Assembly: GCF_000756655.1 (NCBI RefSeq)
Contig: NZ_ARXU01000003.1
Span: 186,001 to 250,000, forward strand
DNA length: 64,000 nucleotides
DNA from: Alcanivorax jadensis T9
GTDB taxonomy: Bacteria > Pseudomonadota > Gammaproteobacteria > Pseudomonadales > Alcanivoracaceae
Direction of reading: 5' to 3'
Positions 47,350 through 61,936 of the stretch are shown here, in pieces. The notes under the pieces were generated by a model that worked only from the letters and a program-made list of their open reading frames with translations, had not been told where the DNA came from and ran no database searches. How positions within the stretch are numbered: the first letter of the stretch is position 1; the number at the start of each line of letters is the position of its first letter. The translations under genes and the position numbers were made by a program.

Positions 47350-49224
47350 TTAGCCGAGCAGACCCAGCAGGCCGCCCAGTACCGGACCCAGTACCGGGAT
47401 GGTGGTCAGGGCATCGTTGAGCGGAGCCAGCAGGCTGCTGGCTTCGGCTTCACCCAGCAGGGACACCAGCAGGTTGCCGACCAGGTCGCCGACCAGCGGC
47501 AGTTCTTCCACCAGGGCGGATACGCTGTCCAGCAGGTTGCCGTCCTGGTCCATGATGCTGTCCAGCAGGCCGCTGGGGTCACCGCTAAGCAGCCCGCCCA
47601 GCAGTCCGTTCAGTAGTTCACCCAATACCGGAATCTGTTCCAGCATGGCCAGGTCCGGGGTGAGCATGTCGCCACCAGCGCCACCTTGCAGGGTGGTGAG
47701 GATCTGATTGAGCAGATCACCCAGTACCGGGATCTCGTTGAGCATCTCGGTGCCGGGCAGCAGCTCGCCGCCGTTGCCGGCGCCGGTAAGGGCTTCCAGC
47801 AGGCCGTTCAGGACATCACCCAGCAGCGGGATCTGTTCCAGCAGGCCGGTGAACTGTTCCAGTTGGCCGGCGGAGTCGGTCAGGCAGTTCAGCGGGTTGG
47901 CGGCGTCGCAAGACACGGCGCCCAGCAGTTGATTGACCACGTCACCCAGTACCGGCACGTCGGCCAGCAGGTCGGTCACCATGCTCAGCTGATCGCCTTC
48001 CAGGGCACCCATCAGGGTTTCCAGGCTCAGGGCATCGGTGGGCAGGCCACCGCTGTCGCCACCGGCAGCACCGTTGAGGATGTCGCCCAGCACCGGAATT
48101 TGTGTCAGCAGGTCAGGCAGGGATTGCAGGTCGCTGAGGGTGCCGAACAGGTCGCCACCATTACCCAGCAGGCCGGCCAGCAGATCGCCCAGTACCGGAA
48201 TCTGTTCCAGCATGGCAGGCAGCTCGCTCAGCAGTTCCATGTTGCCGGGCTCGGCAAGACCGGCCAGCAGGTCTTCCAGAATGGCCGGGTCCAGTGGGCT
48301 CTCACCCATCAGTTCGCCGATGGGGCCCAGGTTCTCGCCGGCAGCCAGCAGGCAAGTGAACGGGTCAGCGCCTTCCGGGCACAGCTCGCCGAGGCCGCCG
48401 GTCAGGTTGAGGATGGAGCCCACTCCGCCCAGCACTTCGGTAATACATTCTTGCGGGGCGAATTCATTTGCACCGGTGGCAATCGGGCACAGGGCCAGAG
48501 ACAGACTGTTCACAGTGCCGATCAGGGGCTCGCCCATGGCCAGGTTGTCAGCGACCTGAGTCAGGCAGAGCTGCGGGTTGAGCGCGTTGTCGCAACCCAG
48601 GTAACCCAGCACGCCGGCCAGGGTGCTGTCTGGAACGCTGCTGAGGGTTTGTACCACGCACTCCAGCGGGTTTTCCGCGCTGGGGCACAGCTGCTGGCCG
48701 ATGGCCCCGCTGTTATCCAGAATGCCGCCCAGGGTGCCCACCAGGTAGGGAACGCTTTCTTCCAGACAGGTCGGCAGGAAAGTGGGTTCGGTGACACTGC
48801 CGAGCAGGTCGGTGTCGGTAGCGGCAACGGTATCGGCGCACAGCAGGCCGAGGACGTTGTCGTTACCCAGAGAGATGTTGGTCAGCGCTTCGTTCTCGCA
48901 GGCCAGGACATCAATCACGCCGCCCAGCTGGGTGCCCAGCAGCGCCTGCGGGCAGACAGAGGCGGTGAAGTGGTTGTTGGTGTCGATCAGAGTCAGCAGC
49001 TGCTGTTTCTCTTCTTCGGTGAGCGGCGGGGTTTCATTGTCGCCACCGTCTTCACCGCCGGTTTCTTCGCCGTCAGTATCGCCACCGTCTTCATTCCCGG
49101 TATTGCCGGTTTCTTCACTGGTGTTGCCCGTAGTGGTGGCCGGGCTACTGCCGCCGCCGCCACCGCAGGCGGCCAGGGTGATGAGCAGAGAGCTCATCAG
49201 CAGGATTTTCAAAAGATGTAGCAT
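47350..49224 (-). CDS. Large repetitive hydrophobic lipoprotein
   Basis: 624 residues. Lipobox ITLAAC (C20) then a GGGGGSS and acidic Gly/Glu/Asp linker to residue 68, which would hold the protein off the outer membrane. Residues 70-300 hold about 18 cysteines in spaced pairs (CPQALLG, CENEAL, CPSAENPLEC). Residues 300-624 contain eight or nine copies of an IPVLGDLLNGLLG-type segment every 30-60 residues, predicted as amphipathic helices. There is no family I recognise. GGGGGAAG precedes the ATG. Could be a surface or lipid-contacting protein. Confidence 0.8.
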   Translation of the reverse strand: MLHLLKILLMSSLLITLAACGGGGGSSPATTTGNTSEETGNTGNEDGGDTDGEETGGEDGGDNETPPLTEEEKQQLLTLIDTNNHFTASVCPQALLGTQLGGVIDVLACENEALTNISLGNDNVLGLLCADTVAATDTDLLGSVTEPTFLPTCLEESVPYLVGTLGGILDNSGAIGQQLCPSAENPLECVVQTLSSVPDSTLAGVLGYLGCDNALNPQLCLTQVADNLAMGEPLIGTVNSLSLALCPIATGANEFAPQECITEVLGGVGSILNLTGGLGELCPEGADPFTCLLAAGENLGPIGELMGESPLDPAILEDLLAGLAEPGNMELLSELPAMLEQIPVLGDLLAGLLGNGGDLFGTLSDLQSLPDLLTQIPVLGDILNGAAGGDSGGLPTDALSLETLMGALEGDQLSMVTDLLADVPVLGDVVNQLLGAVSCDAANPLNCLTDSAGQLEQFTGLLEQIPLLGDVLNGLLEALTGAGNGGELLPGTEMLNEIPVLGDLLNQILTTLQGGAGGDMLTPDLAMLEQIPVLGELLNGLLGGLLSGDPSGLLDSIMDQDGNLLDSVSALVEELPLVGDLVGNLLVSLLGEAEASSLLAPLNDALTTIPVLGPVLGGLLGLLG

Positions 49225-49442
49225 GGGTACTTCCCCCTTTCTTCCATGAACACAAAAGCGTGTATGACAGGCGTATCAGCGCAATCCACCTGTGCGCGCA
49301 CTATATAAAATTCATTGCGCTGCCAATGTTGGCTAAAAATGTTGTTTTGTATCTAATGTTGCAGTGTTTTGTAATGCACAAAGAAGGTGCTTGAATGGGA
49401 GCGCAGCTAAGTCACTGGGAAACCAATAGAAAGGAGGCAGAA

Positions 49443-50108
49443 ATGGCGCAGAATATTGTAATCACTGGTGCAAACCGGGGCATCGGCCTTGCACTGGCAA
49501 AACACTGGAAAGCCCGTGGCGAGCGGGTTTTGGCGGTGTGTCGTCAGGCGTCGACCGCGTTGCTAGACAGTGGCGTGGAGATTATTGATGGCGTGGACGT
49601 GAGCACCGCTGACGGGGTCAGTAACCTGATCAGCGCGCTGGGTAATACGTCGGTGGATATTCTCTACAACAATGCCGGGATCATGCTCAGCGAGACCGTG
49701 GACGAGATGGATTTCGAGCAGATCCTGCAACAGTTCGAGGTTAATACCCTGGGTCCGCTGCGGGTCACCATGGCGCTGCTGAACAACCTGCATCAAGGCA
49801 GCAAGGTGGGCCTGATGACTTCGCGGATGGGCTCTATTGCCGATAACAGCTCTGGGAAGAAGTACGGTTATCGCATCAGCAAAGCCGGCTTGAACGCAGC
49901 GGGTAAATCCCTGGCGCTGGACCTGCACGAACGCGGCATCGCCGTGGCTATTCTGCACCCGGGTTGGGTGCAGACCGACATGACCGGCAACAGCGGTAAC
50001 CTGACAGTGGACGAAGCGGCGTCAAATCTGATTACGCGGATGGATGAGCTGAGTCTGGAAAACAGCGGTACCTTTTGGCATTCCGATGGCAGTGTGTTGC
50101 CCTGGTAA
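49443..50108 (+). CDS. Short-chain dehydrogenase/reductase (carbonyl-reductase-like)
   Basis: 221 residues. Cofactor motif ITGANRGIG at 7-15, NNAG in ILYNNAGIM, a serine in LMTSRMGS and the active-site YGYRISKAGLN. The short size and the ILHPGWVQTDMTG end resemble the CsgA/YbbO-like group of NAD(P)H carbonyl reductases. AAAGGAGG sits 7 bases ahead of the ATG. Substrate not known. Confidence 0.85.
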   Translation: MAQNIVITGANRGIGLALAKHWKARGERVLAVCRQASTALLDSGVEIIDGVDVSTADGVSNLISALGNTSVDILYNNAGIMLSETVDEMDFEQILQQFEVNTLGPLRVTMALLNNLHQGSKVGLMTSRMGSIADNSSGKKYGYRISKAGLNAAGKSLALDLHERGIAVAILHPGWVQTDMTGNSGNLTVDEAASNLITRMDELSLENSGTFWHSDGSVLPW

Positions 50109-50287: not shown

Positions 50288-50935
50288 TCACCCAAGAAGA
50301 AACGCATTTTCATAAAGCGCCGTCAGCCCCCGCTCCCGGAAAACCGGTTCGTGGTCGAGAATCATTTTTCTGGAAAGCGAGGCGACTGAGTAGTCGGCAC
50401 CATAAAGTGCTTTTATTTGCGGTTCGCCAACAGAAAACGGCGGACCATCCATTTCCTGTTGATCATATTCCAGTGTAATAAGTAGCTGCGGTGACTTGTC
50501 GGTGATTGTCAGTAGATGGCGAGCATAACGTGCGCGCATGGCCTCGGGCAGGGCGATCAGGGCAGCCCGGTCATAGATGGCATCCGGTGCCGCTATATCA
50601 CCGGACTGTAGCAGGAAGATGTCACCCTGAAAGACGCAGAGGTCGCCATGCTGGTAACGCTTGCCACCTTGCCAGTCGGTCATCACCGGCTGGCGATTCA
50701 ATGAGGCGAACAGGTCGGTGACGGCTTTATCAGACAGTTCGGCACCGATCACCCGGTAGCCTTTTTCCAGCAGATAGCCGATATCCAGGGTCTTGCCGCA
50801 CAGGGGAAGGAAGACGGTCTGACCGGCTTTCAACGCCAGTTCGTCGAGGTAACGCTGCAGTAATGGATGGACCTGCAGAAGATGAAATCCCAGTTCCGAG
50901 TTGTGCCATTTCTGATGCCAGAATTCCGGGTTCAT
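50288..50935 (-). CDS. tpm: Thiopurine S-methyltransferase
   Basis: 215 residues. N-terminal MNPEFWHQKWHNSELGFH, SAM-binding FLPLCGKTLDIGYLLEKGYRVIGAELS, and the later YDRAALIALPEAMRARYARHL and LLITLEYDQQEMDGPPFSV are diagnostic for bacterial TPMT. It S-methylates thiopurines and, in bacteria, methylates selenium or tellurium oxyanions for detoxification. The start at MNPEF is favoured over a longer frame by conservation. Confidence 0.93.
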   Translation of the reverse strand: MNPEFWHQKWHNSELGFHLLQVHPLLQRYLDELALKAGQTVFLPLCGKTLDIGYLLEKGYRVIGAELSDKAVTDLFASLNRQPVMTDWQGGKRYQHGDLCVFQGDIFLLQSGDIAAPDAIYDRAALIALPEAMRARYARHLLTITDKSPQLLITLEYDQQEMDGPPFSVGEPQIKALYGADYSVASLSRKMILDHEPVFRERGLTALYENAFLLG

Positions 50936-51035
50936 AGGGCCGCCTGTTGGTGAGCGTTCGCCTTCCATGCCAGGAAGGCTTGTGATCGTTTCTTGCGCTG
51001 GTAGGGTAGCTTTTTTTGCTCAGGGAAGGCAGGCC

Positions 51036-51632: not shown

Positions 51633-51831
51633 ACCATCCCGGACAAATATTGCTCGGTGACAGGGCAGTACTGGCCATGGGCTTTGATGGTCAAAAACGC
51701 AGGATGGCGACGCTTGACTGAGCAGGTCATGCCCATTGTGTTATCCATCGTTGCAGGGAATACGAGCTTGCCTGAAAAGCCGGAACCGGCCACTCTGTGG
51801 CCGCATCAGGAGGCGATGATCGGGGGCGGGG

Positions 51832-53004
51832 ATGGCGACAATTCTGTTTTGTTGGGAAATGGGTGAGGGCATGGGGCATCTGATGCCCGTGCGTAAAGTG
51901 CTCAAGGCTCTGGTAGAGCAAGGGCATGATCTGGTGGTTGCTGCGGTGGAGGTGCACACGGCCCGTCGGGTATTGGGTTCTTTTAGCAAGTCCATTGTCC
52001 AGGCTCCCTCCCAGGTTGATAAGCGCTACCCCTTGGGGCGCCCAGCGGAAGGTGTTGCTGACTTGCTTTCGCTCAATGGTTTCGCCGATAACGCGAGTCT
52101 CAAGGGTCGGCATCATGCCTGGTGCCAGCTGGCGACATTGTTCAAACCTGACCTGGTGATAACAGAGCACAGCCCCGGGGCCTTGCTGATGGCAAGAGCC
52201 TTGCGTATCCCGGTTGTCCATGTGGGAACCGGTTTTACCCTGCCCCCTGAGCAGTTCCCAATGTGTTTCCCCGGTTTTGCTGTTGGCGACAATGGCAAGC
52301 GTGAACAGCGCCACCTGGATGTGTTCAACAAACTGATTGGCAGCTCGGGTGGGCAGCCCTTGAACCACCTTCACGAGCTCTTTAACAGTGTTGCGGGTCG
52401 ATACCTGCTGAGTTTTGCGGAGTTGGATCACCTTGGTCCTCGGGATGGCGTTCCTTATATGGGAGTGGAAGTGCCCGAAGATGGTGAGCGTCCCGTCTGG
52501 CCAGATGCCGGCCAGCATCAGGTGTTCGCGTATCTGAAGCCGTTTGCAGCACTGGAGGGATTCCTGACGGCAGTAAATGCTTTGAAACTGTCTCTTTTGC
52601 TGGTTCCGGACCGCATTGACCCTGCTATTTTGCGTCGGCATAAAAGTTCCAATATCCGGGTTGTGGAGGGGCGGCAAAGTATGAAGTCGGTAACTCGTGA
52701 CGCGGACCTGATCGTTTGCAACGGCAATCATGGTACGGCCGCTGCGGCAATGCTTGGCGGAGTTCCCTCACTGTCTTTCCCTCTGCACCAGGAGCAGGAG
52801 GCCTGCGCCCGCAGGGTGGCCAGCTCCAGCCTGGGTGCCATGCTCCCGGTTAAAGACGGCAAGGCCATTCCCCCTCTCCTGGAAACAATGTTGCGTAGCC
52901 GCGCCATGCAGGAATCCTGCGGCAAAGCCGCCTCCCGGTATCAGGGTTTTGATTATCAAGACAGTGTTAACCGCATGGTCCGGGAAATCGGAGCGTTGCT
53001 GTGA
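51832..53004 (+). CDS. UGT/MGT-like glycosyltransferase (GT1 fold), first copy
   Basis: 390 residues. N-terminal CWEMGEGMGHLMPVRKVLKAL is the acceptor-side Rossmann start of GT1 enzymes (GHxxP). The C-terminal donor-side segment NGNHGTAAAAMLGGVPSLSF then PLHQEQ corresponds to the UGT motif, with a terminal EQ for the sugar. No signal peptide, so cytoplasmic. It probably transfers a sugar to a small or lipid acceptor. It is a paralogue of the gene at 58347, at the other end of the cluster. The stop overlaps the next ATG by one base. Confidence 0.82.
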   Translation: MATILFCWEMGEGMGHLMPVRKVLKALVEQGHDLVVAAVEVHTARRVLGSFSKSIVQAPSQVDKRYPLGRPAEGVADLLSLNGFADNASLKGRHHAWCQLATLFKPDLVITEHSPGALLMARALRIPVVHVGTGFTLPPEQFPMCFPGFAVGDNGKREQRHLDVFNKLIGSSGGQPLNHLHELFNSVAGRYLLSFAELDHLGPRDGVPYMGVEVPEDGERPVWPDAGQHQVFAYLKPFAALEGFLTAVNALKLSLLLVPDRIDPAILRRHKSSNIRVVEGRQSMKSVTRDADLIVCNGNHGTAAAAMLGGVPSLSFPLHQEQEACARRVASSSLGAMLPVKDGKAIPPLLETMLRSRAMQESCGKAASRYQGFDYQDSVNRMVREIGALL

Positions 53005-54461
53005 TGAAGCGGCGGGAATTCATTCGCGATGTGGCTCTAAGTTTGTCGCTGTCACCGGTGGCATTGCTTTCTGGTTGCCAGAGAAAACTCTCTGCGGAGT
53101 TTGTCATCGTCGGCTCCGGCCCTGCGGGCATAGCCCTGGCTGACAGCCTGGCCCAGGCGGGGCGGCAAGTGTTGGTGCTGGAAGGAGGGGCAGCAGAGCC
53201 TGATCGGGCGTTACAGGACATGCATGCTGTCGAAGCGGGCAAGTGGGGCCTGGCCTATAACTTTGGCTGGGCAACCCAGCGACTACTGGGCGGAACCACC
53301 AACCTCTGGCAGAGCCATTCGCCGCGCCCCCTGGAGCAGGAACTGCACGCTGCCAGCTTGCGTGGGGTGGGGAAGGACTGGCCCTTTTCCATGGACAGCC
53401 TGACGCCCTGGTTGCAGTCGGCCGAGCAATGGCTGCATGTGCGTCCGTCCGAGCCGGCCATGAATCCGGCCTTGCCAGTCAATCCTTTCATTGCCAGCAG
53501 CGAAGGGCTTCGCAAGCTGTTGACCGGAGCGGGGTATCAGCACCTGGAAGCCGGTGCCTACGGCATGGTTCACCATGAAGGGATGGATGCGCTGCGATTA
53601 CTGGAAGACGGAGAAATTGACCGCGTGGCCGGGTTGAACACGGTTGCCCTGAAAGATCGCACTACGGTTCGCCGTATCCGCATGAGCGGCGGGCGGGCCG
53701 TGGCGCTGGAATGTGCCGACCGGGAGGGCAAGCCGCTGGAGGTGGAGGCCGGTACGGTGATTCTCTGTGGTGGTGGCGTGCAGACCCCCAGGCTGCTGTG
53801 GAACAGCGCCAGCAGCAACGGCGGAGCGGCACCGGGCAATCATAGCGATTGGCTGGGTGCAGGCTTTATGGAGCATCCCGGGCAACAGATTTATGGGCGC
53901 CGGGAGAAAGCGTTGTTGCCGCAAGGGGCAACGGAGACTCATTTGCATGTCCGCGACATGCTCCATGACCCGGCCTATGACGGCATCCGGGGAACGCTTT
54001 TCCATGTGGGGCTCAAACCCGGGCCGCAGGGCTCGGAGTTCACCATGGTCGAGGTATTGTTTGAGCAGGAAGCCAGCAGACAAAACCGTATTCTGCCCGG
54101 CCAGAAGACCGATGCCCTGGGTGACCCCCTGCCCAGGGTTGATTATCGCCTCACCGCTGAAGACCGCCGCACCATCAAGGTCGGAAGTGATCTGCAGCGC
54201 CAGCTTGCTGAAGCAGTGGGAAGTGTCGACAAGCAAACCGCACTGAGGCCCGGATCGCATCATCTGATGGGGGCGACACGCCTTTCGCTGGACCCCCGCG
54301 ATGGTGTGGTGGATGCCAACCTGAAAGTCTGGGGTACCGAAAACCTGTATGTGGCTGGCAGCAGTGTCCTCCCCAGCGGGATGACTGTCCCTCCAACCCT
54401 TATTCTGACAGCGTTGAGTCAGCGCCTGGGGGCGCTCCTTTCGAAACAGAAAAAGCAATGA
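53004..54461 (+). CDS. GMC-type FAD oxidoreductase, predicted lipoprotein
   Basis: 485 residues. N-terminus MKRREFIRDVALSLSLSPVALLSGC has a twin arginine and a lipobox, so it may be exported folded and lipid-anchored. FAD motif VIVGSGPAGIALADSLAQAG follows; GGTTNLWQSHSPRP is the second FAD contact. The C-terminal catalytic region is PGSHHLMGATRL and NLYVAGSSVLPSGM. GMC enzymes oxidise alcohols, sugars or sterols. Coupled to the upstream glycosyltransferase. The substrate is unknown. Confidence 0.87.
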   Translation: MKRREFIRDVALSLSLSPVALLSGCQRKLSAEFVIVGSGPAGIALADSLAQAGRQVLVLEGGAAEPDRALQDMHAVEAGKWGLAYNFGWATQRLLGGTTNLWQSHSPRPLEQELHAASLRGVGKDWPFSMDSLTPWLQSAEQWLHVRPSEPAMNPALPVNPFIASSEGLRKLLTGAGYQHLEAGAYGMVHHEGMDALRLLEDGEIDRVAGLNTVALKDRTTVRRIRMSGGRAVALECADREGKPLEVEAGTVILCGGGVQTPRLLWNSASSNGGAAPGNHSDWLGAGFMEHPGQQIYGRREKALLPQGATETHLHVRDMLHDPAYDGIRGTLFHVGLKPGPQGSEFTMVEVLFEQEASRQNRILPGQKTDALGDPLPRVDYRLTAEDRRTIKVGSDLQRQLAEAVGSVDKQTALRPGSHHLMGATRLSLDPRDGVVDANLKVWGTENLYVAGSSVLPSGMTVPPTLILTALSQRLGALLSKQKKQ

Positions 54462-54590
54462 ACTTAATTCATTCCGATGTTTTTATGCGAACCATTTCAC
54501 ATTGTTGGAAAAGTGACCTAATATCGTGACGAAATGTAAAAAAGCGGCCAAGGATTAACGGCCAGACTCTGGGGTTGATGGGGGAAAATC

Positions 54591-55817
54591 ATGTCTTTAT
54601 TTAGTCGACAGCCGCTGGCTGCTGCTATTCGTGCGTCTATGCTTGGTGGTTTCGCCATCATTGCCAGCCCTTCATACGCTGGTTTCACCGAAGTGACCGA
54701 AAACAATCCGTTCGATGCTATTACCTCTGGCACAGTAATGCCGTCCCTGACTTTGCAGGATTTTGATGATGATGGTGATCTCGAGGCCGTTGTCTTCCAT
54801 GCTGCGGACGCTGACAGTTTTCCCTATTACGGCAGTGATATCAGCTTTTATGAAAATACCGGCTCTGCCCAGAGTGCCGAATTCACCCAGGTCGCCGACG
54901 TTCCCATCTCCGGTTACGGTGGTGATACCTTCGAGGTAAACCCGTTTGCGAATTCCTGGACCTATAGCTCCTATGGCCACCCGGTGGCTGCTGGCGATCT
55001 GGATGGCGACGGGGATGCCGACTTTATTGGCGGTTCCAACACCTCTAGCGTGGAAATGTGGTTTGGGGTCACGACTACGGATGCCTATGGCGTAGCCACT
55101 AGCCTGGCCGACGGCTACCACAACGGCACGTATTACTGGTTTGACAGTCCCTATTACGGCCAGGGCCTGGTGCCTTATCTGGACGAATACGGCGGATATG
55201 CCTCAGCGGTACCTTTGGATATTGATGGTGATGACGATATGGACCTTGTCGTCATGGATAACCAGTTTGTTCGTGTCTATCAGAATAACGGCAGTATCGA
55301 TGGCGTGGTTCAGCTGAATGAACTCACCGGCAGCAATAACCCCTTTTATGCGGGTGCTTCCAACAGCGTTTATATGGGTATCCCGGATGATATTCCTGCA
55401 CTGAATCATTCAGAACACTACGGCGCCCCTCTGGCCGCCGGCGATGTGGATAACGACGGCGATACGGATGTCATCGTGGGGGTGCGTAACGGACCCGGGG
55501 ATATGCTCTTGTTCGTGAACACCGGCACTGCTGGCATGGCCGTGTTTGAGCAACAAGCTGACGCCTCCCTGGACGTATCCACCGACATTTATGCCGCCCC
55601 GGTGATGGCCGATATCGATAACGACAATGATGACGATCTGGTCGTTGCTGAACAGCAGGCCAGTGGAGCTTCGTCTTATCGACTGTTCCTGAATGATGGC
55701 GCTGGTGCTACGGCGAACGAAAATAACACAGGAAATAGCAGCAGCTCGTCAGGTGGTGCTGTCGGTGGATTGCTTATCGGGCTGTCTTTGTTGCTGCTGC
55801 GTCGTCGTCGGCGTTAA
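54591..55817 (+). CDS. FG-GAP/VCBS repeat protein with GlyGly-CTERM-like tail, copy 1
   Basis: 408 residues. Signal peptide to about residue 30 (SPSYAG). The mature part contains several Ca-binding loops: FDDDGDLEAVVFH, LDGDGDADFIGG, IDGDDDMDLVVMD, VDNDGDTDVIVGV and IDNDNDDDLVVAE, the pattern of FG-GAP/VCBS beta-propellers. The C-terminus SSSSGGAVGGLLIGLSLLLL ending RRRRR is a Gly-Gly, hydrophobic, basic sorting signal, like GlyGly-CTERM processed by rhombosortase. Paralogue of the next gene. Confidence 0.85.
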   Translation: MSLFSRQPLAAAIRASMLGGFAIIASPSYAGFTEVTENNPFDAITSGTVMPSLTLQDFDDDGDLEAVVFHAADADSFPYYGSDISFYENTGSAQSAEFTQVADVPISGYGGDTFEVNPFANSWTYSSYGHPVAAGDLDGDGDADFIGGSNTSSVEMWFGVTTTDAYGVATSLADGYHNGTYYWFDSPYYGQGLVPYLDEYGGYASAVPLDIDGDDDMDLVVMDNQFVRVYQNNGSIDGVVQLNELTGSNNPFYAGASNSVYMGIPDDIPALNHSEHYGAPLAAGDVDNDGDTDVIVGVRNGPGDMLLFVNTGTAGMAVFEQQADASLDVSTDIYAAPVMADIDNDNDDDLVVAEQQASGASSYRLFLNDGAGATANENNTGNSSSSSGGAVGGLLIGLSLLLLRRRRR

Positions 55818-55823
55818 CGCTAT

Positions 55824-55852
55824 ACAGCCCGGTTTCTGCCGGGTTGTTATTT
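55824..55852 (+). terminator. Short hairpin between the two FG-GAP genes
   Basis: AGCCCGG-TTTCT-GCCGGGTT followed by GTTATTTAT; a weak terminator or attenuator 7 bp after the first stop codon, letting the two paralogues be expressed at different levels. Confidence 0.5.
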
Positions 55853-55877
55853 ATCGGATACATAAAAGGAGATATTC

Positions 55878-57113
55878 ATGAAGAAATTTCAACGTCGCCG
55901 TCTTGCCGTGGCTGTCGCAGCCTCCGTCGGCCTTGTCGGGGTCGCTAACGCCGCTTTCGAGGAAGTGACCGAAGCCAATCCGTTTGACGCTATTACGTCC
56001 ACCGGTGGAAACCCGTCGCTGGTGATGATGGATCTGGATAATGATGGCGATAAAGATGCTGTCCTTTTCCATAATTATCAGAATGACAACTACCCATATA
56101 GCTATGGCGGAACCAGTGTCTGGGAAAATATCGGTAGTGCAACCGCGCCAGAGTTTTCTCATGTCCCTGATGTGAGCTATGCCGGCCCCGGTTATGCGGG
56201 TCAGGACATCGCAGTGAGCCCTTTTGCGGATGATTATGACCGCTATTATGGCCACCCGGTGTCCGCTGCCGACCTGGAAGGTGATGGTGATCTGGATTTC
56301 TTCGGTGGGCAGGACTGCGCCTATAGCAGCGCCCAGCTTTCTTTCGCCGAAGTTGAGAGCGATGAAAGTGGGGTTGTCACCGGTGTGACCCATTATCCGT
56401 TCACGTACAGTGGTGGTGGGTATGGCTCCAGTGCCAATCCGTTTTACGGTAATGTGCTGGCACCGAGCGCCGCCTACGCTGGCTGTGGATCTGTAAGCTT
56501 TGCTGCCGGGGATCTTGATAACGATAGCAAGATCGACATCGTCAGTGTGGATGAAGATACGTTGCGCGTATTCATGAATACGTCTATGACTGTCGAAACC
56601 ACCCCCTATACTTTCATGGATCTTGGTGCCAACAGCCCATTGGTGGAAGCCAGTGCCTTGACGGCGCCCTATTACGGCGCCCCGGCTGTCCTTCACGATG
56701 TGGATGCCGACGGTGATCTGGATCTGGTGATGGGCACTGTTTCCGCTGCACCACTACGCCTTTTCATCAACGAGGGCACGGCCTCCACGGCAGATTTTGT
56801 CGAGGTCGAAGATACGTCCGGCAGCCTGGATGTGACCTCCACCGGTTGGGCTGCGCCCACCTTTGCCGACATGGATGGTGACGGCAAGGATGATCTGATT
56901 GTCGTAGAGTTGAATATGTCTGAGCCAGAACTCCAGCCTAGACAGTCTGAGAGACGGATTTCTTTGGAAGGCTCGCAAAGCATTCGTTATTTCCGCAATA
57001 CTAGCGCGGATGACAGTGTTGCTGCGGAAGAGTCTTCTTCTAACGGCGGTTCCCTGGGTATCGCTGCTGTGTTGATGGGCATGCTGTTTGGGCTGCGTCG
57101 CCGCCGTCGCTAA
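55878..57113 (+). CDS. FG-GAP/VCBS repeat protein with GlyGly-CTERM-like tail, copy 2
   Basis: 411 residues. Signal peptide MKKFQRRRLAVAVAASVGLVGVANA. It shares with copy 1 the first mature segment EEVTEANPFDAITS and YYGHPVSAADLEGDGDLDFFGG. Ca-binding loops include LDNDGDKDAVLFH, LDNDSKIDIVSVD, VDADGDLDLVMG and MDGDGKDDLIVVE. C-terminus SNGGSLGIAAVLMGMLFGLR ending RRRRR. It probably folds as an exported propeller on the outer surface or is released. AAAGGAGA precedes the ATG. A strong terminator follows. Confidence 0.85.
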   Translation: MKKFQRRRLAVAVAASVGLVGVANAAFEEVTEANPFDAITSTGGNPSLVMMDLDNDGDKDAVLFHNYQNDNYPYSYGGTSVWENIGSATAPEFSHVPDVSYAGPGYAGQDIAVSPFADDYDRYYGHPVSAADLEGDGDLDFFGGQDCAYSSAQLSFAEVESDESGVVTGVTHYPFTYSGGGYGSSANPFYGNVLAPSAAYAGCGSVSFAAGDLDNDSKIDIVSVDEDTLRVFMNTSMTVETTPYTFMDLGANSPLVEASALTAPYYGAPAVLHDVDADGDLDLVMGTVSAAPLRLFINEGTASTADFVEVEDTSGSLDVTSTGWAAPTFADMDGDGKDDLIVVELNMSEPELQPRQSERRISLEGSQSIRYFRNTSADDSVAAEESSSNGGSLGIAAVLMGMLFGLRRRRR

Positions 57114-57131
57114 GCCTTGGTCCCTCAAATA

Positions 57132-57165
57132 GAAGCGCCCGGGTTTTGCCCGGGCGCTTTTTTTT
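57132..57165 (+). terminator. Rho-independent terminator after FG-GAP copy 2
   Basis: AGCGCCCGGG-TTTT-GCCCGGGCGCT then eight T. It splits the 51.8-59.5 kb cluster into at least two transcripts. Confidence 0.93.
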
Positions 57166-57209
57166 CGTCTCAGGCATGATGAAGCAAACGCTAATAGGTT
57201 GAGTGATCC

Positions 57210-58340
57210 ATGTCTTTTATTGCTATTTGCGGCACTGGCTTTATCGGAGTCGGCCTGGCTTTGGCCTTGGAACGGCATCCCCGGCTGAAGGTCAGCCAAG
57301 TATATACGCGCCGCCCGGTGCGCGAGGTAGAGCATCCATTCCCGGAGGTTCTTACTAATGACCGTGAAAAGCTTCTTTCAGGCTGCGACTTGCTGGTGGA
57401 ATGCAGTGGCGATGTCTTGCTTGCCAGTGAGATTGTCGCTGCCGCGCATCAACGCGGGATTCCTGTTGTCACCATGAATTCGGAATTTCACGTTACTGTT
57501 GGCAGTGCCTTTGTGGACACGGGCTATCTCACGGAAGCGGAAGGGGACCAGCCGGGCAGTTTGGCAGCACTGAATGAAAAAGTGACGGCCATGGGATTTC
57601 GGCCGGTGGTCTTCGGAAATATCAAAGGGTTCCTCAACACGAAACCATCCCGTGAGGATATGGTTTTCTGGTCAGAAAAGCAGGGGATCAGCCTTCCTCA
57701 GGTCACCGCCTTTACCGATGGCACCAAGATTCAGATTGAACAGGCTCTGGTGGCCAATGGGCTGGGCGCAAATCTGCTACGTTCAGGCATGATGGGGCCG
57801 GATTCCCCCGACCTGGAGGCGGCGGCAAAGCAGCTGGCGGAGATGGCAGAAGAGCACGAAGCCGGGCCAGTGAGTGACTATGTGCTTAATGCCGGTGGTC
57901 CTGCCGGGGTGTTTGTTGTTGCACGCCATGATGCGGAACAACAGCGCTTTCTCAAATATCTCAAGTTGGGTGAGGGGCCTTACTACTTTTTGCTGCAACC
58001 CTTTCACCTTTGTCACCTGGAAATGGTGGGAACGATAGAGGCCGTTCTGAATGGCAGGCAACCCCTGTTGAATAATGGAAGAAAACCCTCTGTCGGAGTG
58101 TGTGCGATCGCAAAGGCCGACATGGAATCTGGAGACATTGTGACGCGAGCCTTGGGGAGTTTTGTGTTCCGGGGCGAGACCCTTCCCTTTGAGCAACATC
58201 GTGATTTTGTGCCGATAGGGTTGCTGCAGGATTGCCAGCTGATCGATACCATTCGCGAAGGCGACAGGGTTCGCTGGGATCATGTAACGGTGCCAGATTC
58301 ACTGGCGCTGCGCCTTTTCAATACCTTGCTGGAAGAGTGA
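57210..58340 (+). CDS. Homoserine-dehydrogenase-like NAD(P)-dependent oxidoreductase with SAF domain
   Basis: 376 residues. NAD(P) fold AICGTGFIGVGLALALE at the N-terminus, then LLVECSGDVLLASEIVAAA, VVTMNSEFHVTVGSAF, and FTDGTKIQIEQALVANGLGA, conserved in COG4091 proteins. The C-terminal 100 residues (about 285-376, GVCAIAKADMESGDIVTRAL) form a SAF-type domain. The group includes enzymes acting on branched sugar acids such as apionate, as well as uncharacterised members. It lies 7 bp before the second glycosyltransferase gene. Confidence 0.82.
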   Translation: MSFIAICGTGFIGVGLALALERHPRLKVSQVYTRRPVREVEHPFPEVLTNDREKLLSGCDLLVECSGDVLLASEIVAAAHQRGIPVVTMNSEFHVTVGSAFVDTGYLTEAEGDQPGSLAALNEKVTAMGFRPVVFGNIKGFLNTKPSREDMVFWSEKQGISLPQVTAFTDGTKIQIEQALVANGLGANLLRSGMMGPDSPDLEAAAKQLAEMAEEHEAGPVSDYVLNAGGPAGVFVVARHDAEQQRFLKYLKLGEGPYYFLLQPFHLCHLEMVGTIEAVLNGRQPLLNNGRKPSVGVCAIAKADMESGDIVTRALGSFVFRGETLPFEQHRDFVPIGLLQDCQLIDTIREGDRVRWDHVTVPDSLALRLFNTLLEE

Positions 58341-58346
58341 TAAAAG

Positions 58347-59534
58347 ATGGCGCATCTGGTCGTTGGCTGGGAGCTGGGGCATGGCATGGGCCACATCATG
58401 CCACTGCGCATGCTTGCTGAAGTTTTACTGGAAAAAGGACATCAACTGACATTCATCGTGCGAGATGTCTCTGCGGCACAGCGCGCGTTGGAAGGTCTGG
58501 ATGTTGTCTGGTTGCAAACTCCTCAAGTGACCTACCGCCCCTGGGAAATGACTCGCACCGATTGCTACTCTCAATTGCTGGGTAATATCGGATTTCGGGA
58601 TCCCGAAAAACTGATGTCTACGGTTACCGGGTGGCGCAGCCTTCTCAGCGCGTTGCAGCCGGATGCCGCACTATTGGAATTCGCGCCATCAGCAATGATT
58701 GCCTGTTATATGGAACGTATTCCGTTTGCCTTGCAGGGCAATGGATTTTTTTGTCCTCCTGCCGAGGAGGAGCCCTTCGGGGTTATCAGCAACAAGTTGT
58801 CTGAAAAACAGCGAAGACATCAGGATGTCATGTTGCTGGACAGCATAAACACCGTTATTGGTGATAGTCGACCTGCGCTTGAGCATGTTTCTGAACTCTA
58901 TCGGCTATCTTGCCTGAACGTACTGACCAGTTTTCGCGAGCTGGATCATTTCTGCCGTGACAATGATGATATTTTCCGTGGCGCCTGGGTACCGTCGATT
59001 CCAATTTCACCGCGCTGGCCAAAAGGGGAGGGGAAGCGGATTTTTGCCTATCTGACTGCCCGCCCCGGGGTCGACAAAGTCCTTGCGATGCTAAGTCGAA
59101 CCGGTTTGCCGACCCTGGTGTATTGCCCTGGTGTTGAGGGTAAATTCCGAGCTCCGTTCGAAAACCAAAAGTGTCGTTTTCTTGATGGGTTGGTAGATAT
59201 CAAGAAGCTGGCTGAGCAGTCCTCTCTGGGTGTGTTTCATGGCAATCATTCCTCCACCGCCATGTTCATGCTTGCAGGTACTCCGACTATGCAGATACCT
59301 CTGTATATGGAGCAGTTGATGTTTGCCCGCCGAATCAAAGCCATGGGAGCCGGGGAGATCGCTACTCTCGACCAGCCTCAACGGATTGCTGCGGGGATCA
59401 ATGCCATCATGTCCAGTCCTGGCTATGGCGAAAGCGCGAGACGTTTTGCGGATCAGTATCGTGATTACGATCAGAATTGCGCCATTCGGCAGGCAGCGGC
59501 GGACCTGGAAGTGGCGCTTGGATTAAGCGCGTAG
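58347..59534 (+). CDS. UGT/MGT-like glycosyltransferase (GT1 fold), second copy
   Basis: 395 residues. N-terminal VVGWELGHGMGHIMPLRMLA parallels CWEMGEGMGHLMPVRKVL of the first copy. The donor-side segment FHGNHSSTAMFMLAGTPTMQ then IPLYMEQ keeps the UGT-type order with a closing EQ. Cytoplasmic. Divergence from the first copy suggests a different acceptor or sugar. Starts 7 bp after the SAF-domain gene, so they are cotranscribed. No terminator seen in the 116-bp gap before the convergent VIT/VWA gene. Confidence 0.82.
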   Translation: MAHLVVGWELGHGMGHIMPLRMLAEVLLEKGHQLTFIVRDVSAAQRALEGLDVVWLQTPQVTYRPWEMTRTDCYSQLLGNIGFRDPEKLMSTVTGWRSLLSALQPDAALLEFAPSAMIACYMERIPFALQGNGFFCPPAEEEPFGVISNKLSEKQRRHQDVMLLDSINTVIGDSRPALEHVSELYRLSCLNVLTSFRELDHFCRDNDDIFRGAWVPSIPISPRWPKGEGKRIFAYLTARPGVDKVLAMLSRTGLPTLVYCPGVEGKFRAPFENQKCRFLDGLVDIKKLAEQSSLGVFHGNHSSTAMFMLAGTPTMQIPLYMEQLMFARRIKAMGAGEIATLDQPQRIAAGINAIMSSPGYGESARRFADQYRDYDQNCAIRQAAADLEVALGLSA

Positions 59535-59650
59535 AAGCGTTTTTCGCCGCCACTATTCTGCGTTGTTGCTCATTGACCGGAAAGATTTCACTGTGCATCC
59601 GGGCAATGAGCCTGACTTTATTCAGCATTATTTTTTCTGATAACTCACCT

Positions 59651-61759
59651 TTATAAAATGTTCTCCGAGTTGTCGGGTTTTCGTCGCAGTCCGCCGCCGA
59701 TAAGCAGGATCAGGAAGGGCAGTAGTGCGCTGATACCGAAGGCGCCGCCACTCCCGGCCCCGCCGCCGCTGTAGGAAGGCTGGTTACTGGTGTACATGGG
59801 CTGTGCCTGGTCCACCCGGTTGCTGGTGGGCGCCTTGGTCTGGCGTTGGGCCTTGGCCAGTTTTTCGATGTCCCGACGTTTGGCATTGCGACGCTCAATA
59901 TCGTATTCCGCGAACACCTCATCGCGCAGCACCACCATGGAGGTGTAGTTAGTGACCAGTCCGTATTCCAGGCCCAGGTCTACGATGCCTTGCTGCAGGT
60001 CCTTTTCTTCGCCGAAATAATTGATCTCCCGCTGCATGCCCTGAATGGTGGCGTAGGCCCACAGGCGATCCAGCTCCGGGTTATCGCCGCCGGTGACGGG
60101 GAAGTCGAAACGGGTTTTGTATTGCTTGTCCTGGCCACCCACGTTGGCACGCAGGGTGACTTTCGCCGGGCCGTCACCCCAGTAGTGGCCGAGCAACACG
60201 ATCTGACGGCCATGGTAGATGCTACCGACACGTTGCGGTTGCAGGTTGGCGGTGCGAACGCCGTCGATATCGATCTCCACGTCGTTCATGGCCTGGTGGG
60301 TGAGCTTGGCGGTGGCGTTGAGAATCTGCCCGGCGATGTCATCGCTGTTGGACACGCTGATAGCAAAGCCGTTGCTGGCATCGGTCATGGCGGTGAGCAT
60401 GGGCCTATTGCTGCTGTTGCCCATGACAAAGGTGAATAACCGAACGTCGTGGCTTTCCAGCAAGTCGATAAAATCTTTCTGCTGGGTCTTGCCCACGTTG
60501 GCTACGCCATCGGTGACCAAAACGATGCCGGTGGGACGATCTGCGTCGAGCGGTTTCAGGGCCAGGCTCAGGCCGCCGAACAGATTGGTACCGCCACGGG
60601 ATTTGAGCTGCATGACTTTGTCCGTGTAGCGACGAATGCTGTCCGGTGTGGCATCTACAAAGCCGTTGGTAAGTTCTTCGGCGCGGTCATCAAACAGCAC
60701 AATGCGAAAGCGGTCTCCGCCGCGCAGTTTGCCCAGGGCCTGGCTGACGCCGTCCGCCAGGGTGGCCAGCTTGGCATTCATGGAACCGGAAATATCCAGT
60801 ACGAACACCCAGTCGCTGCCGGTGCTAATGGCTGGCAGATCATCACCAGGGGTGATGCTGAGCATGAAGGTGCCGCGGTCCTTGCCCGGTGCCTTGTAGG
60901 CTACCAGGTCCACGCTGCCGGGCAGGTCCTGCTGGTGGCGCCAGTAGACGACGATGTCCTGATTCAGGGTGAAGGCATTGGTCGGCTGGCCATTGGCGGG
61001 CGGGGGCGCGAAGTTCGCTCTTTCGCTGTTTTCGTCTTCCTTGCTGGTAACGGTGGCCGCGCGATTATCCAGTTTTACCTGCCATTGTTGTGGGTCCAGT
61101 TGCTGGATCTGCGCCTCGGGATGCTTGGGTAGGCGGAGGGCGTCCACCGGGTAGCCGCTACGCAGGTTCAGGGTAAAGCTGAAGTGTTCTTCCACACTGT
61201 TGTTGGCGGTCCAGAACGCCAGCTTCTTCTCGTCCACGCCGCCTTCTTCCAGCGGGTACACATAGCGGCCGATGCCGGTATCCACAAAAGCGGGCTGCAT
61301 ATAGACCAGCCGTACCCGTGTATCCTGGCCGGCGCGCACTGGTTGTACCCGCACATCAAAGGCCTTGTAGCTGTCCTTTTCGGTGAGGCCTGCCTCGCGA
61401 CCGGCGGCTTTTTCCTGTTCGTAGACCTGGCGGGCCTGCTGTTTTTCCAGCACTTCGCCGATCACCGGCTTGCCGTCGATCCACACGGTGAATTCGGCAA
61501 CGGTGCCGCGCTCGGGGACCGGGAAGCGGTAATAGGCTTCCAGATCCTGATCATTGGGGTTGTGGAAGACCTGCTCCACTTCGGTGATGGCGTAGCCGTC
61601 TTCCACGTCCACTGTGACATGTTGTTCTCGGATCTGCAGTGGTGGCAGGCTGCTGTTGGCTGGCGTCATCAACCCGGCGGCTAGGGCCGGTGTAGTCATG
61701 CTGCCCAACAGCAGGACCAGGCCGGCCAACAAACGGGTAAATCCGTTCCTGAAACCCAT
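59651..61759 (-). CDS. VIT and VWA domain protein (marine proteobacterial sortase-target-like)
   Basis: 702 residues. Signal peptide to about residue 28. VIT domain about 35-160 (AITEVEQVFHNPNDQDLEAYYRFPVPE), VWA domain about 315-490 with MIDAS DISGS at 322-326, then a beta-rich region. The C-terminus has a Gly-rich stretch (SGGGAGSGGAFG), a hydrophobic ISALLPFLILLIGGG and basic LRRKP, so a GlyGly-type anchor and not an LPxTG motif. No sortase is adjacent. AAGGAGAATC precedes the ATG at 61759. It may bind partners through metal-dependent adhesion. Confidence 0.85.
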   Translation of the reverse strand: MGFRNGFTRLLAGLVLLLGSMTTPALAAGLMTPANSSLPPLQIREQHVTVDVEDGYAITEVEQVFHNPNDQDLEAYYRFPVPERGTVAEFTVWIDGKPVIGEVLEKQQARQVYEQEKAAGREAGLTEKDSYKAFDVRVQPVRAGQDTRVRLVYMQPAFVDTGIGRYVYPLEEGGVDEKKLAFWTANNSVEEHFSFTLNLRSGYPVDALRLPKHPEAQIQQLDPQQWQVKLDNRAATVTSKEDENSERANFAPPPANGQPTNAFTLNQDIVVYWRHQQDLPGSVDLVAYKAPGKDRGTFMLSITPGDDLPAISTGSDWVFVLDISGSMNAKLATLADGVSQALGKLRGGDRFRIVLFDDRAEELTNGFVDATPDSIRRYTDKVMQLKSRGGTNLFGGLSLALKPLDADRPTGIVLVTDGVANVGKTQQKDFIDLLESHDVRLFTFVMGNSSNRPMLTAMTDASNGFAISVSNSDDIAGQILNATAKLTHQAMNDVEIDIDGVRTANLQPQRVGSIYHGRQIVLLGHYWGDGPAKVTLRANVGGQDKQYKTRFDFPVTGGDNPELDRLWAYATIQGMQREINYFGEEKDLQQGIVDLGLEYGLVTNYTSMVVLRDEVFAEYDIERRNAKRRDIEKLAKAQRQTKAPTSNRVDQAQPMYTSNQPSYSGGGAGSGGAFGISALLPFLILLIGGGLRRKPDNSENIL

Positions 61760-61936
61760 GATGATTCTCCTTGTTATCAATCACGGGAACAGTTGTAGGG
61801 CATTGGAGAGATTTTGTTAAACGGTGTTCATTAACAATTCATGTCGCGAGGTGTTCAATAGGAAGGCAAGTCTGAATCATCAACTGCTTGTTCGGCCCCA
61901 GGCACGGGTCGCAATGACCCGTGGAGCGATCTTCGA

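Follow-up and report, generated by a model that had tools for sequence, protein, structure and literature searches.

What is made by six adjacent genes of the marine oil degrader Alcanivorax jadensis T9 that encode two glycosyltransferases, an oxidoreductase of the GMC type, two propeller proteins and a dehydrogenase-type enzyme? The genes occupy positions 51832-59534 of the window, by which is meant the whole 64,000-nucleotide stretch that was analysed (contig NZ_ARXU01000003.1, positions 186,001 to 250,000). They are referred to here as UGT1, GMC, FG1, FG2, DRL and UGT2. The answer preferred below is a self-contained cassette in which a dTDP-sugar (dTDP, deoxythymidine diphosphate) made by DRL is put by the UGTs on the FG surface proteins, a scheme that we regard as evenly balanced between right and wrong. 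Its surest single claim, that DRL makes a dTDP-sugar, is considered quite probable.

Genomes and layout of the cassette

UGT1, rml and rhombosortase genes were counted in 46 genomes of the family, and DRL was searched in 57 genomes of relatives; G000 denotes the genome of the window. All six open reading frames (ORFs) were present on the + strand, in the single direction described by an earlier reading made from the sequence alone (the sequence-only reading) and in the order UGT1-GMC-FG1-FG2-DRL-UGT2. The features are as follows.

51832..53004, +, UGT1: 390-aa GT-B glycosyltransferase, GT1/UGT-like; PF13528 at 30 bits, PF06722 under its cut-off
53004..54461, +, GMC oxidoreductase: 485 aa, twin-arginine signal and lipobox (MKRREFIRDV...LLSGC); PF05199 and PF00732
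54591..55817, +, FG1: predicted exported FG-GAP beta-propeller protein with Ser-rich linker, transmembrane segment and Arg tail SSSSSGGAVGGLLIGLSLLLLRRRRR; PF13517 in four stretches
55824..55847, +, weaker terminator-like hairpin between FG1 and FG2
55878..57113, +, FG2: paralogue of FG1; PF13517 (FG-GAP_3) in four stretches
57131..57161, +, strong intrinsic terminator-like hairpin 3' of FG2; 14 pairs, 9 of them GC, with a T-run
57210..58340, +, DRL: 376-aa DXR-II-like (DLO-type) NAD(P) oxidoreductase; PF21135 at 127 bits
58347..59534, +, UGT2: 395 aa, related to UGT1
51789..59510, +, block homologous to the cassette of G002 (77% identity), where the copy stands at another site

Both couplings that had been claimed were found. 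With ATG at 53004 as its start, GMC overlaps the end of UGT1 (53004) by 1 bp (GTG at 53001 is an alternative start), and DRL and UGT2 are near-contiguous, with six bases between 58340 and 58347. The paralogues, claimed as internal duplications, were related by BLAST at 28% (UGT1 and UGT2) and about 38% identity (FG1 and FG2). The hairpins suggest three transcription units, UGT1-GMC, FG1-FG2 and DRL-UGT2; terminator-like sites numbered 17 against 8.6 in shuffles, and single weak hairpins mean little.

Conservation and mobility

Genome comparison showed the cassette to be a conserved unit, which was the test that the sequence-only reading had set for itself. UGT1 was present in 6 of the 46 family genomes, from three genera, and the full six-gene order was kept in four (G000, G002, G024 and G031). 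Two more, G021 and G027, carried a form without DRL (UGT1-GMC-FG-UGT2) and had a DRL relative of 55-57% identity elsewhere in the genome. Since the gene order is kept across genera in which the four enzymes are 55-66% identical, the clustering is far more than chance would give. Each of the six cassettes had one or two FG proteins; FG1 and FG2 formed separate lineages in G000, G002 and G024, and the two FG copies of G031 were mutual closest relatives. No lipid, acyl, transport or scaffold-making gene was found within the conserved cassette.

DRL was found in 8 of the 57 relatives' genomes, one by a weak match of 29%. Named matches of the same cluster type were Alcanivorax sp. DP30 (DRL 78% identical) and two contigs of metagenome-assembled genomes (64 and 99%). 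The second of these contigs (L010, 4.7 kb) is filed under a Cellvibrionales genome; with a DRL 99% identical to that of the window, it comes from the same species or is misplaced.

In the window 8048 bp lie between conserved flanks (51634-59681), and the same site in cassette-free relatives measured 113-222 bp (222 bp in G001 and G005, 221 in G010, 119 in G006 and 113 in G013). The cassette of G002 sits on the other side of genes matching 49395-50108 and 50288-50968, so that two Alcanivorax genomes carry it at two different sites. These positions point to a cassette that was moved or gained more than once. The GC content was 57.0% for UGT1, 61.6% for GMC, 53.6% for FG1, 54.7% for FG2, 54.6% for DRL and 53.0% for UGT2. 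The window as a whole has 58.7%, a value of which four of the six genes fall clearly short.

DRL and the dTDP-sugar genes

The sequence-only reading had called the fifth gene a SAF-domain dehydrogenase. More exactly, the protein consists of a DRL_cat domain (PF21135) and a NAD-binding domain and belongs to the DXR-II/DLO family, which we take to be COG4091-like. It was matched to the Brucella DXR-II structures 3upy and 3upl (E 5e-33, query residues 47-359).

The family link was followed in the gene context of DRL relatives. One genome scan gave 58 related loci, three of them of the present cluster type, and the other 55 were scored. Neighbouring rml genes were counted on all six frames, since the long-ORF picker misses DRL in 10 of the 55 loci, and a gene within 3.5 kb was taken as near (397 kb near, 419 kb far). 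An rml gene was near in 30 of the 55 loci, always on the strand of DRL (RmlC in 26, RmlD in 17, RmlA in 10, RmlB in 7), and none above the same thresholds was found in the 419 kb beyond. At the level of gene context these counts demonstrate a link between DRL and rml genes, and the linked loci span Campylobacterota, Gammaproteobacteria, Skermanella, Petrocella (Bacillota), Lutibacter (Bacteroidota) and Omnitrophota. Six loci (L027, L042, L045, L046, L048 and L062) had RmlA, RmlB, RmlC and DRL with no RmlD in the DNA examined; these are rml operons of Campylobacterota and one Bacillota. The 17 loci with RmlD were mostly RmlD-DRL fusions, and 3 of 3 fusions tested passed the RmlD cut-off.

The family genomes gave a similar distribution. 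RmlC was above its cut-off in 6 of 46 (G000, G002, G024, G021, G027 and G015), and RmlD at E 1e-30 in three (G015, G021 and G027); at that threshold RmlD was not found in G000, G002 or G024, all of which have RmlC and an in-cluster DRL. Every RmlC-bearing genome (n=6) thus has RmlD or an in-cluster DRL. RmlB occurred in 18 genomes, including all six with RmlC. RmlC was present in 5/6 cassette genomes and 1/40 others (Fisher p 2.6e-5, uncorrected for kinship); the sixth cassette genome, G031, is 64% complete, and its lack of rml genes says little. RmlA adjoins RmlB in G000 and G002, so that RmlA, RmlB and RmlC stand without RmlD in these two genomes as well as in the six operons elsewhere. Of RmlB, RmlC and RmlD, the three searched genome-wide in G024, that genome has the first two, with rmlC-rmlB directly beyond the cassette. 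RmlA and RmlB of G000 and G002 may serve other sugars too, as other sugar genes lie nearby.

Two further rml observations were made. The rmlC gene (L209:9248-9790 in G000; L210 in G002) stands apart from rmlAB, between pgi-like and phosphomannomutase-like genes identified by eye, and in G000 is about 19 kb from rmlB. In G014 a decayed RmlC-like stretch (C109:433422-433850) directly follows RmlB and is interrupted within the match by four stop codons (TGA three times, TAA once), which suggests that G014 lost the rml pathway.

The simplest reading of the gene context is that DRL acts on the RmlC product in place of RmlD. The resemblance to the RmlABCD pathway of dTDP-L-rhamnose lies in the presence of RmlA, RmlB and RmlC in the genome and in the rml operons elsewhere that include DRL; the difference from it, and from its streptose-dihydrohydroxystreptose branch (StrM, CBU1838), is that DRL would take the place of the RmlD absent at E 1e-30 from G000, G002 and G024. 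Because RmlD-DRL fusions exist, the product is perhaps not plain rhamnose.

An isoprenoid enzyme, a second DXR brought into the cassette by accident, would be suggested by the family homology to Brucella DXR-II. In the alignment Lys193 is kept as Lys139, but Lys191 is replaced by Asn137 and Thr229 by Ile174; the substrate-site set of DXR-II (Lys191, Lys193, Thr229) is therefore incomplete in DRL, which has instead the hydrophobic residue of DLO1 at position 229. In the available part of PMC3847144, where the roles of these residues are given, Thr229 is invariant in DXR-II and hydrophobic (Leu, Ile or Val) in DLO1, and a DXR mutant was not complemented by any of four DLO1/DLO2 proteins tested. 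With DRL relatives also found beside rml genes, a second DXR is very improbable, and a role in the methylerythritol phosphate pathway was rejected on the substituted active-site residues and the rml context.

Glycosyltransferases and their surface-protein neighbours

The predicted structure of UGT1 was a GT-B fold (pLDDT 83), and its Foldseek matches included the dTDP-sugar transferases SpnG, CalG1 and OleD among many other members of the superfamily. In such enzymes the His/Asp pair is catalytic and the (D/E)Q motif serves the donor. UGT1 has, in the model, the two lobes, the N-lobe His/Asp pair and the C-lobe (D/E)Q motif of a GT1/UGT-like GT-B enzyme, and H16, D107 and E321 were invariant in 19 aligned UGT rows; no Cys was invariant among them.

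UGT relatives were found in 34/293 genomes of the order (E 1e-3, with many weak partial matches) and in 17/369 of the class (E 1e-25), G000 being counted in both. From outside the family 31 loci were taken: all 14 non-family order hits of at least 156 bits (none of those at or below 89 bits) and all 17 class hits outside G000. Scores were obtained for 29, the long-ORF picker having lost the UGT at L192 and L196. Sorted proteins were predicted with a home-made hydropathy rule, which misses some FG proteins of the cassette itself; for autotransporters, one of them served as the query of a similarity search. In 16 of the 29 loci the UGT had an autotransporter, or an exported protein with C-terminal sorting, no more than two genes away. 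Autotransporter ORFs numbered 10/107 near the UGTs and 0/227 far from them, and sorted-protein ORFs 9/107 and 0/227; when the family's own loci were included, sorted ORFs were 17/141 near and 0/264 far, two of the 17 being false calls on GMC C-termini. Within these limits, the counts demonstrate a link of the wider UGT family to surface proteins.

Six of the autotransporters were tested with Pfam, which confirmed the domain in every one; five of them are from family f29 (with Big_9) and the sixth is from f186. PEP-CTERM was above the Pfam cut-off in the UGT partners at L155, L182, L185, L186, L187 and L188 and below it at L150. In G110 there are two UGT loci, and at each the UGT diverges from a separate autotransporter; a protein at L149 that looks sorted by eye was missed by the predictor and had no Pfam match. 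Partners with unrelated anchors recur, so that what the loci have in common is an exported protein, and we somewhat favour exported surface proteins as the targets of the UGTs.

Such an action has precedents. AAH and TibC, autotransporter heptosyltransferases that attach heptose to Ser residues of the passenger, work in the cytoplasm. In the available part of PMC4358343 they are dedicated protein glycosyltransferases on AIDA-I and TibA. The likeness is that of a GT-B enzyme reserved for one exported protein of the cell surface, and UGT relatives stand beside autotransporters at ten loci. The UGTs here differ in belonging to the GT1/UGT-like branch, without an invariant Cys and so without the four-Cys iron finger, and in having a probable dTDP-deoxysugar donor, proposed targets that are sorted beta-propellers, and the extra DRL and GMC genes. 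If the preferred scheme is right, the cassette works like AAH/TibC; by the lack of an invariant Cys it does not belong to their BAHT family.

FG proteins and GMC oxidoreductase

The sequence-only reading had placed the transferases in the cytoplasm and taken the FAD enzyme and the sorted proteins as exported; as predictions these locations hold. The model of FG2 (pLDDT 68) was a beta-propeller near those of CRTAC1 and of the integrin and PVL types, and acidic DxDxDG repeats of the FG proteins suggest calcium binding. The FG tails have a Ser/Gly- or Lys-rich part followed by a hydrophobic part and Arg. That of FG2 is GlyGly-CTERM-like, with 14.6 bits to TIGR03501 against a cut-off of 15.5, and FG1 had no listed match; all FG tails with a listed score fell slightly short of the cut-off, and membership of GlyGly-CTERM by TIGR03501 was therefore not found. 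Rhombosortase was present in the source genome (149.2 bits, cut-off 84), with its gene on another contig, and was above the cut-off in 44/46 family genomes. The FG proteins thus share with the GlyGly-CTERM/rhombosortase system a Ser/Gly-rich linker, a hydrophobic stretch, an Arg tail and an available rhombosortase, and differ in their sub-threshold scores and in the placement of the rhombosortase gene away from the cassette's contig. A sortase partnership specific to the cassette was rejected, as rhombosortase does not track it. An LPXTG match of FG1 (21.2 bits, cut-off 15.9) was taken as a chance match of a hydrophobic-plus-Arg tail.

GMC was assigned to its family by PF00732 (31.4 bits, cut-off 23) and PF05199 (70.9, cut-off 24.6); its twin-arginine motif and lipobox were read by eye. 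The nearest solved relatives were bacterial FAD glucose and fructose dehydrogenases, aligned in four stretches that include the C-terminal active-site region. The Asn-His pair of these dehydrogenases is catalytic, which fits the mutant names of the listed structures, and it aligned with His-His in GMC. Compared with the FAD sugar dehydrogenases, GMC is shorter, has a lipoprotein-type twin-arginine signal and has no adjoining small-subunit gene. GMC relatives occurred near the UGT and a surface protein in two of the 31 non-family loci, from two different families: at L182 together with a Gluconate_2-dh3 subunit, a PEP-CTERM gene and the UGT, and at L189:5063-9985, from another family of the class, side by side with an autotransporter and the UGT. 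A sugar outside the cytoplasm is the likely substrate of GMC; its presence on FG1 and FG2 is a further step that we infer, and oxidation by GMC is the least sure part of the scheme.

Proposed scheme and alternatives

In the preferred scheme RmlA, RmlB and RmlC, encoded outside the cassette, would form dTDP-4-keto-L-rhamnose in the cytoplasm, and DRL, in place of RmlD, would convert it to a dTDP-activated L-deoxysugar. UGT1 and UGT2 would put the deoxysugar on FG1 and FG2 before export, one perhaps starting the glycan and the other extending it. The FG proteins would leave by the Sec pathway, with rhombosortase or an enzyme like it acting on the C-terminus. Twin-arginine translocation would export GMC in folded form as a lipoprotein, and outside the cytoplasm GMC would then oxidise one of the hydroxyls of the sugar on the FG proteins. 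The acceptor, the exact sugar, the order of the UGTs, the export routes and the GMC substrate are all given here as the most plausible choices.

Several observations weigh against this scheme. By the predictor 13 of the 29 scored UGT loci have no surface-protein partner, nine of the ten autotransporter loci come from one family, and 29 of the 31 non-family loci yielded no GMC relative. The UGT1 model has its nearest folds among transferases with small-molecule substrates. A true RmlD fused to DRL means that plain replacement of RmlD is not the whole story, and 25 of the 55 DRL loci, including those of Hydrogenophaga and Verrucomicrobia, have no nearby rml gene. G021 and G027 keep DRL outside the cassette and have two UGTs for one FG protein, and glycosylation of FG1 and FG2 is itself reached by reasoning from these contexts.

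The sequence-only reading had proposed synthesis and surface display or oxidation of a glycosylated product; this general idea was upheld in part, and its guess of a glycolipid was not. If the product were a glycolipid or biosurfactant, the UGTs would use the dTDP-sugar to glycosylate a lipid, the part played by RhlB in making rhamnolipid, and GMC would oxidise the result. The UGT fold and the dTDP-sugar link would suit chemistry of the rhamnolipid type, and RhlB-like enzymes are proposed as glucolipid transferases of Alcanivorax borkumensis in the available part of PMC10710537. The conserved cassette, however, has no acyl or export gene, UGT1 is missing from 40/46 family genomes, FG proteins accompany it in all six cassettes, and relatives of the UGTs pair with surface proteins and those of DRL with dTDP-rhamnose genes, which makes a glycolipid unlikely. 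Because UGT1 and UGT2 were the sole matches of the UGT profile in the source genome, an RhlB-like glucolipid transferase, if present there, would not be a close relative of the UGTs. The UGTs could also make a sugar linker or a glycolipid that a sorting enzyme then joins to the C-terminus of FG1 and FG2, in the manner of the linking sugar on type IX secretion cargo. The sorting-like tails and the wide occurrence of rhombosortase would agree with this, and C-terminal linking sugars with sortase-type conjugation are described in the available part of PMC7468200; but rhombosortase occurs with or without the cassette, and at ten UGT loci the partner is an autotransporter, for which no sortase is needed, so we consider such linkage improbable.

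A small molecule might instead be glycosylated and oxidised, with the FG proteins binding it at the surface. Antibiotic glycosyltransferases are the closest folds to the UGT1 model, and the FG2 model resembles, among others, the PVL-type propellers that bind sugars, yet the cassette has no scaffold-making gene and the UGT family pairs with surface proteins; we give this little credence. The preferred scheme also has a more specific form. DXR chemistry is a rearrangement with a reduction, and S. griseus and C. burnetii both have a DLO1 protein on record; on these grounds DLO1 can fairly be put forward as another candidate for the ring contraction of streptose-type sugars. By the same kind of reaction as that of DXR on DXP, DRL would then contract the ring of dTDP-4-keto-L-rhamnose and give a branched, dihydrostreptose-type furanose, the UGTs would load it on the propellers, and GMC would make a reactive surface aldehyde from the hydroxymethyl branch, a proposal that we hold as speculative and unlikely as a whole. 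The two DLO1 proteins, of which that of S. griseus may be StrU, appear in Table 1 of PMC3847144, and the available part of PMC9095892 leaves the ring-contraction enzyme open and suspects an RmlD paralogue. If the proposal were true, the DLO1 family would supply the missing ring-contraction step, which would become assayable.

Neighbouring genes

Radical SAM genes stood 3' of UGT2 in four of the six cassette genomes (G021, G024, G027 and G031), as listed.

L083:12780-13799, radical SAM gene
L084:5421-6440, radical SAM gene
L087:5548-6567, radical SAM gene
L089:18726-19712, radical SAM gene

The one tested, that of L083, had a tungsten-enzyme maturase as its nearest model, well below the cut-off. 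A radical SAM protein was rejected as a required part, being absent from the window and from four nearby stretches in G000 and G002, to which the search was confined. An anti-phage defence island was likewise rejected, as none of the six cassette proteins matched a PADLOC model at E 1e-5. The DRL relatives of G027 (L085) and G021 (L086) lie near flavin monooxygenase-like and NAD-epimerase-like genes, judged from the start of the sequences. A VIT-VWA protein (59651-61780, - strand) adjoins the cassette in the window; it resembles the marine sortase target family (213.6 bits, cut-off 551.65) and had matches in 12 of 17 genomes of the genus, that of G002 with one in-frame TAA. At 47350-49224 (- strand) is a 624-aa lipoprotein-like protein with many IPVLGDLLNGLLG-like repeats and no Pfam family above cut-off.

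Significance

As the sequence-only reading supposed, no pathway with this gene combination was described in the titles or abstract openings of the literature surveyed. Each enzyme class is already known, and the combination would be a variant of the systems that decorate bacterial surface proteins. For two orphan groups, the DLO-type relatives of DXR-II and a UGT-like family, the scheme offers a role that can be put to the test. The former would be nucleotide-sugar enzymes able to replace RmlD, and the latter would serve surface proteins with different anchors, of the autotransporter, PEP-CTERM and GlyGly-like kinds. An exported oxidase that acts on a protein-bound sugar would, if true, be an unusual surface modification.

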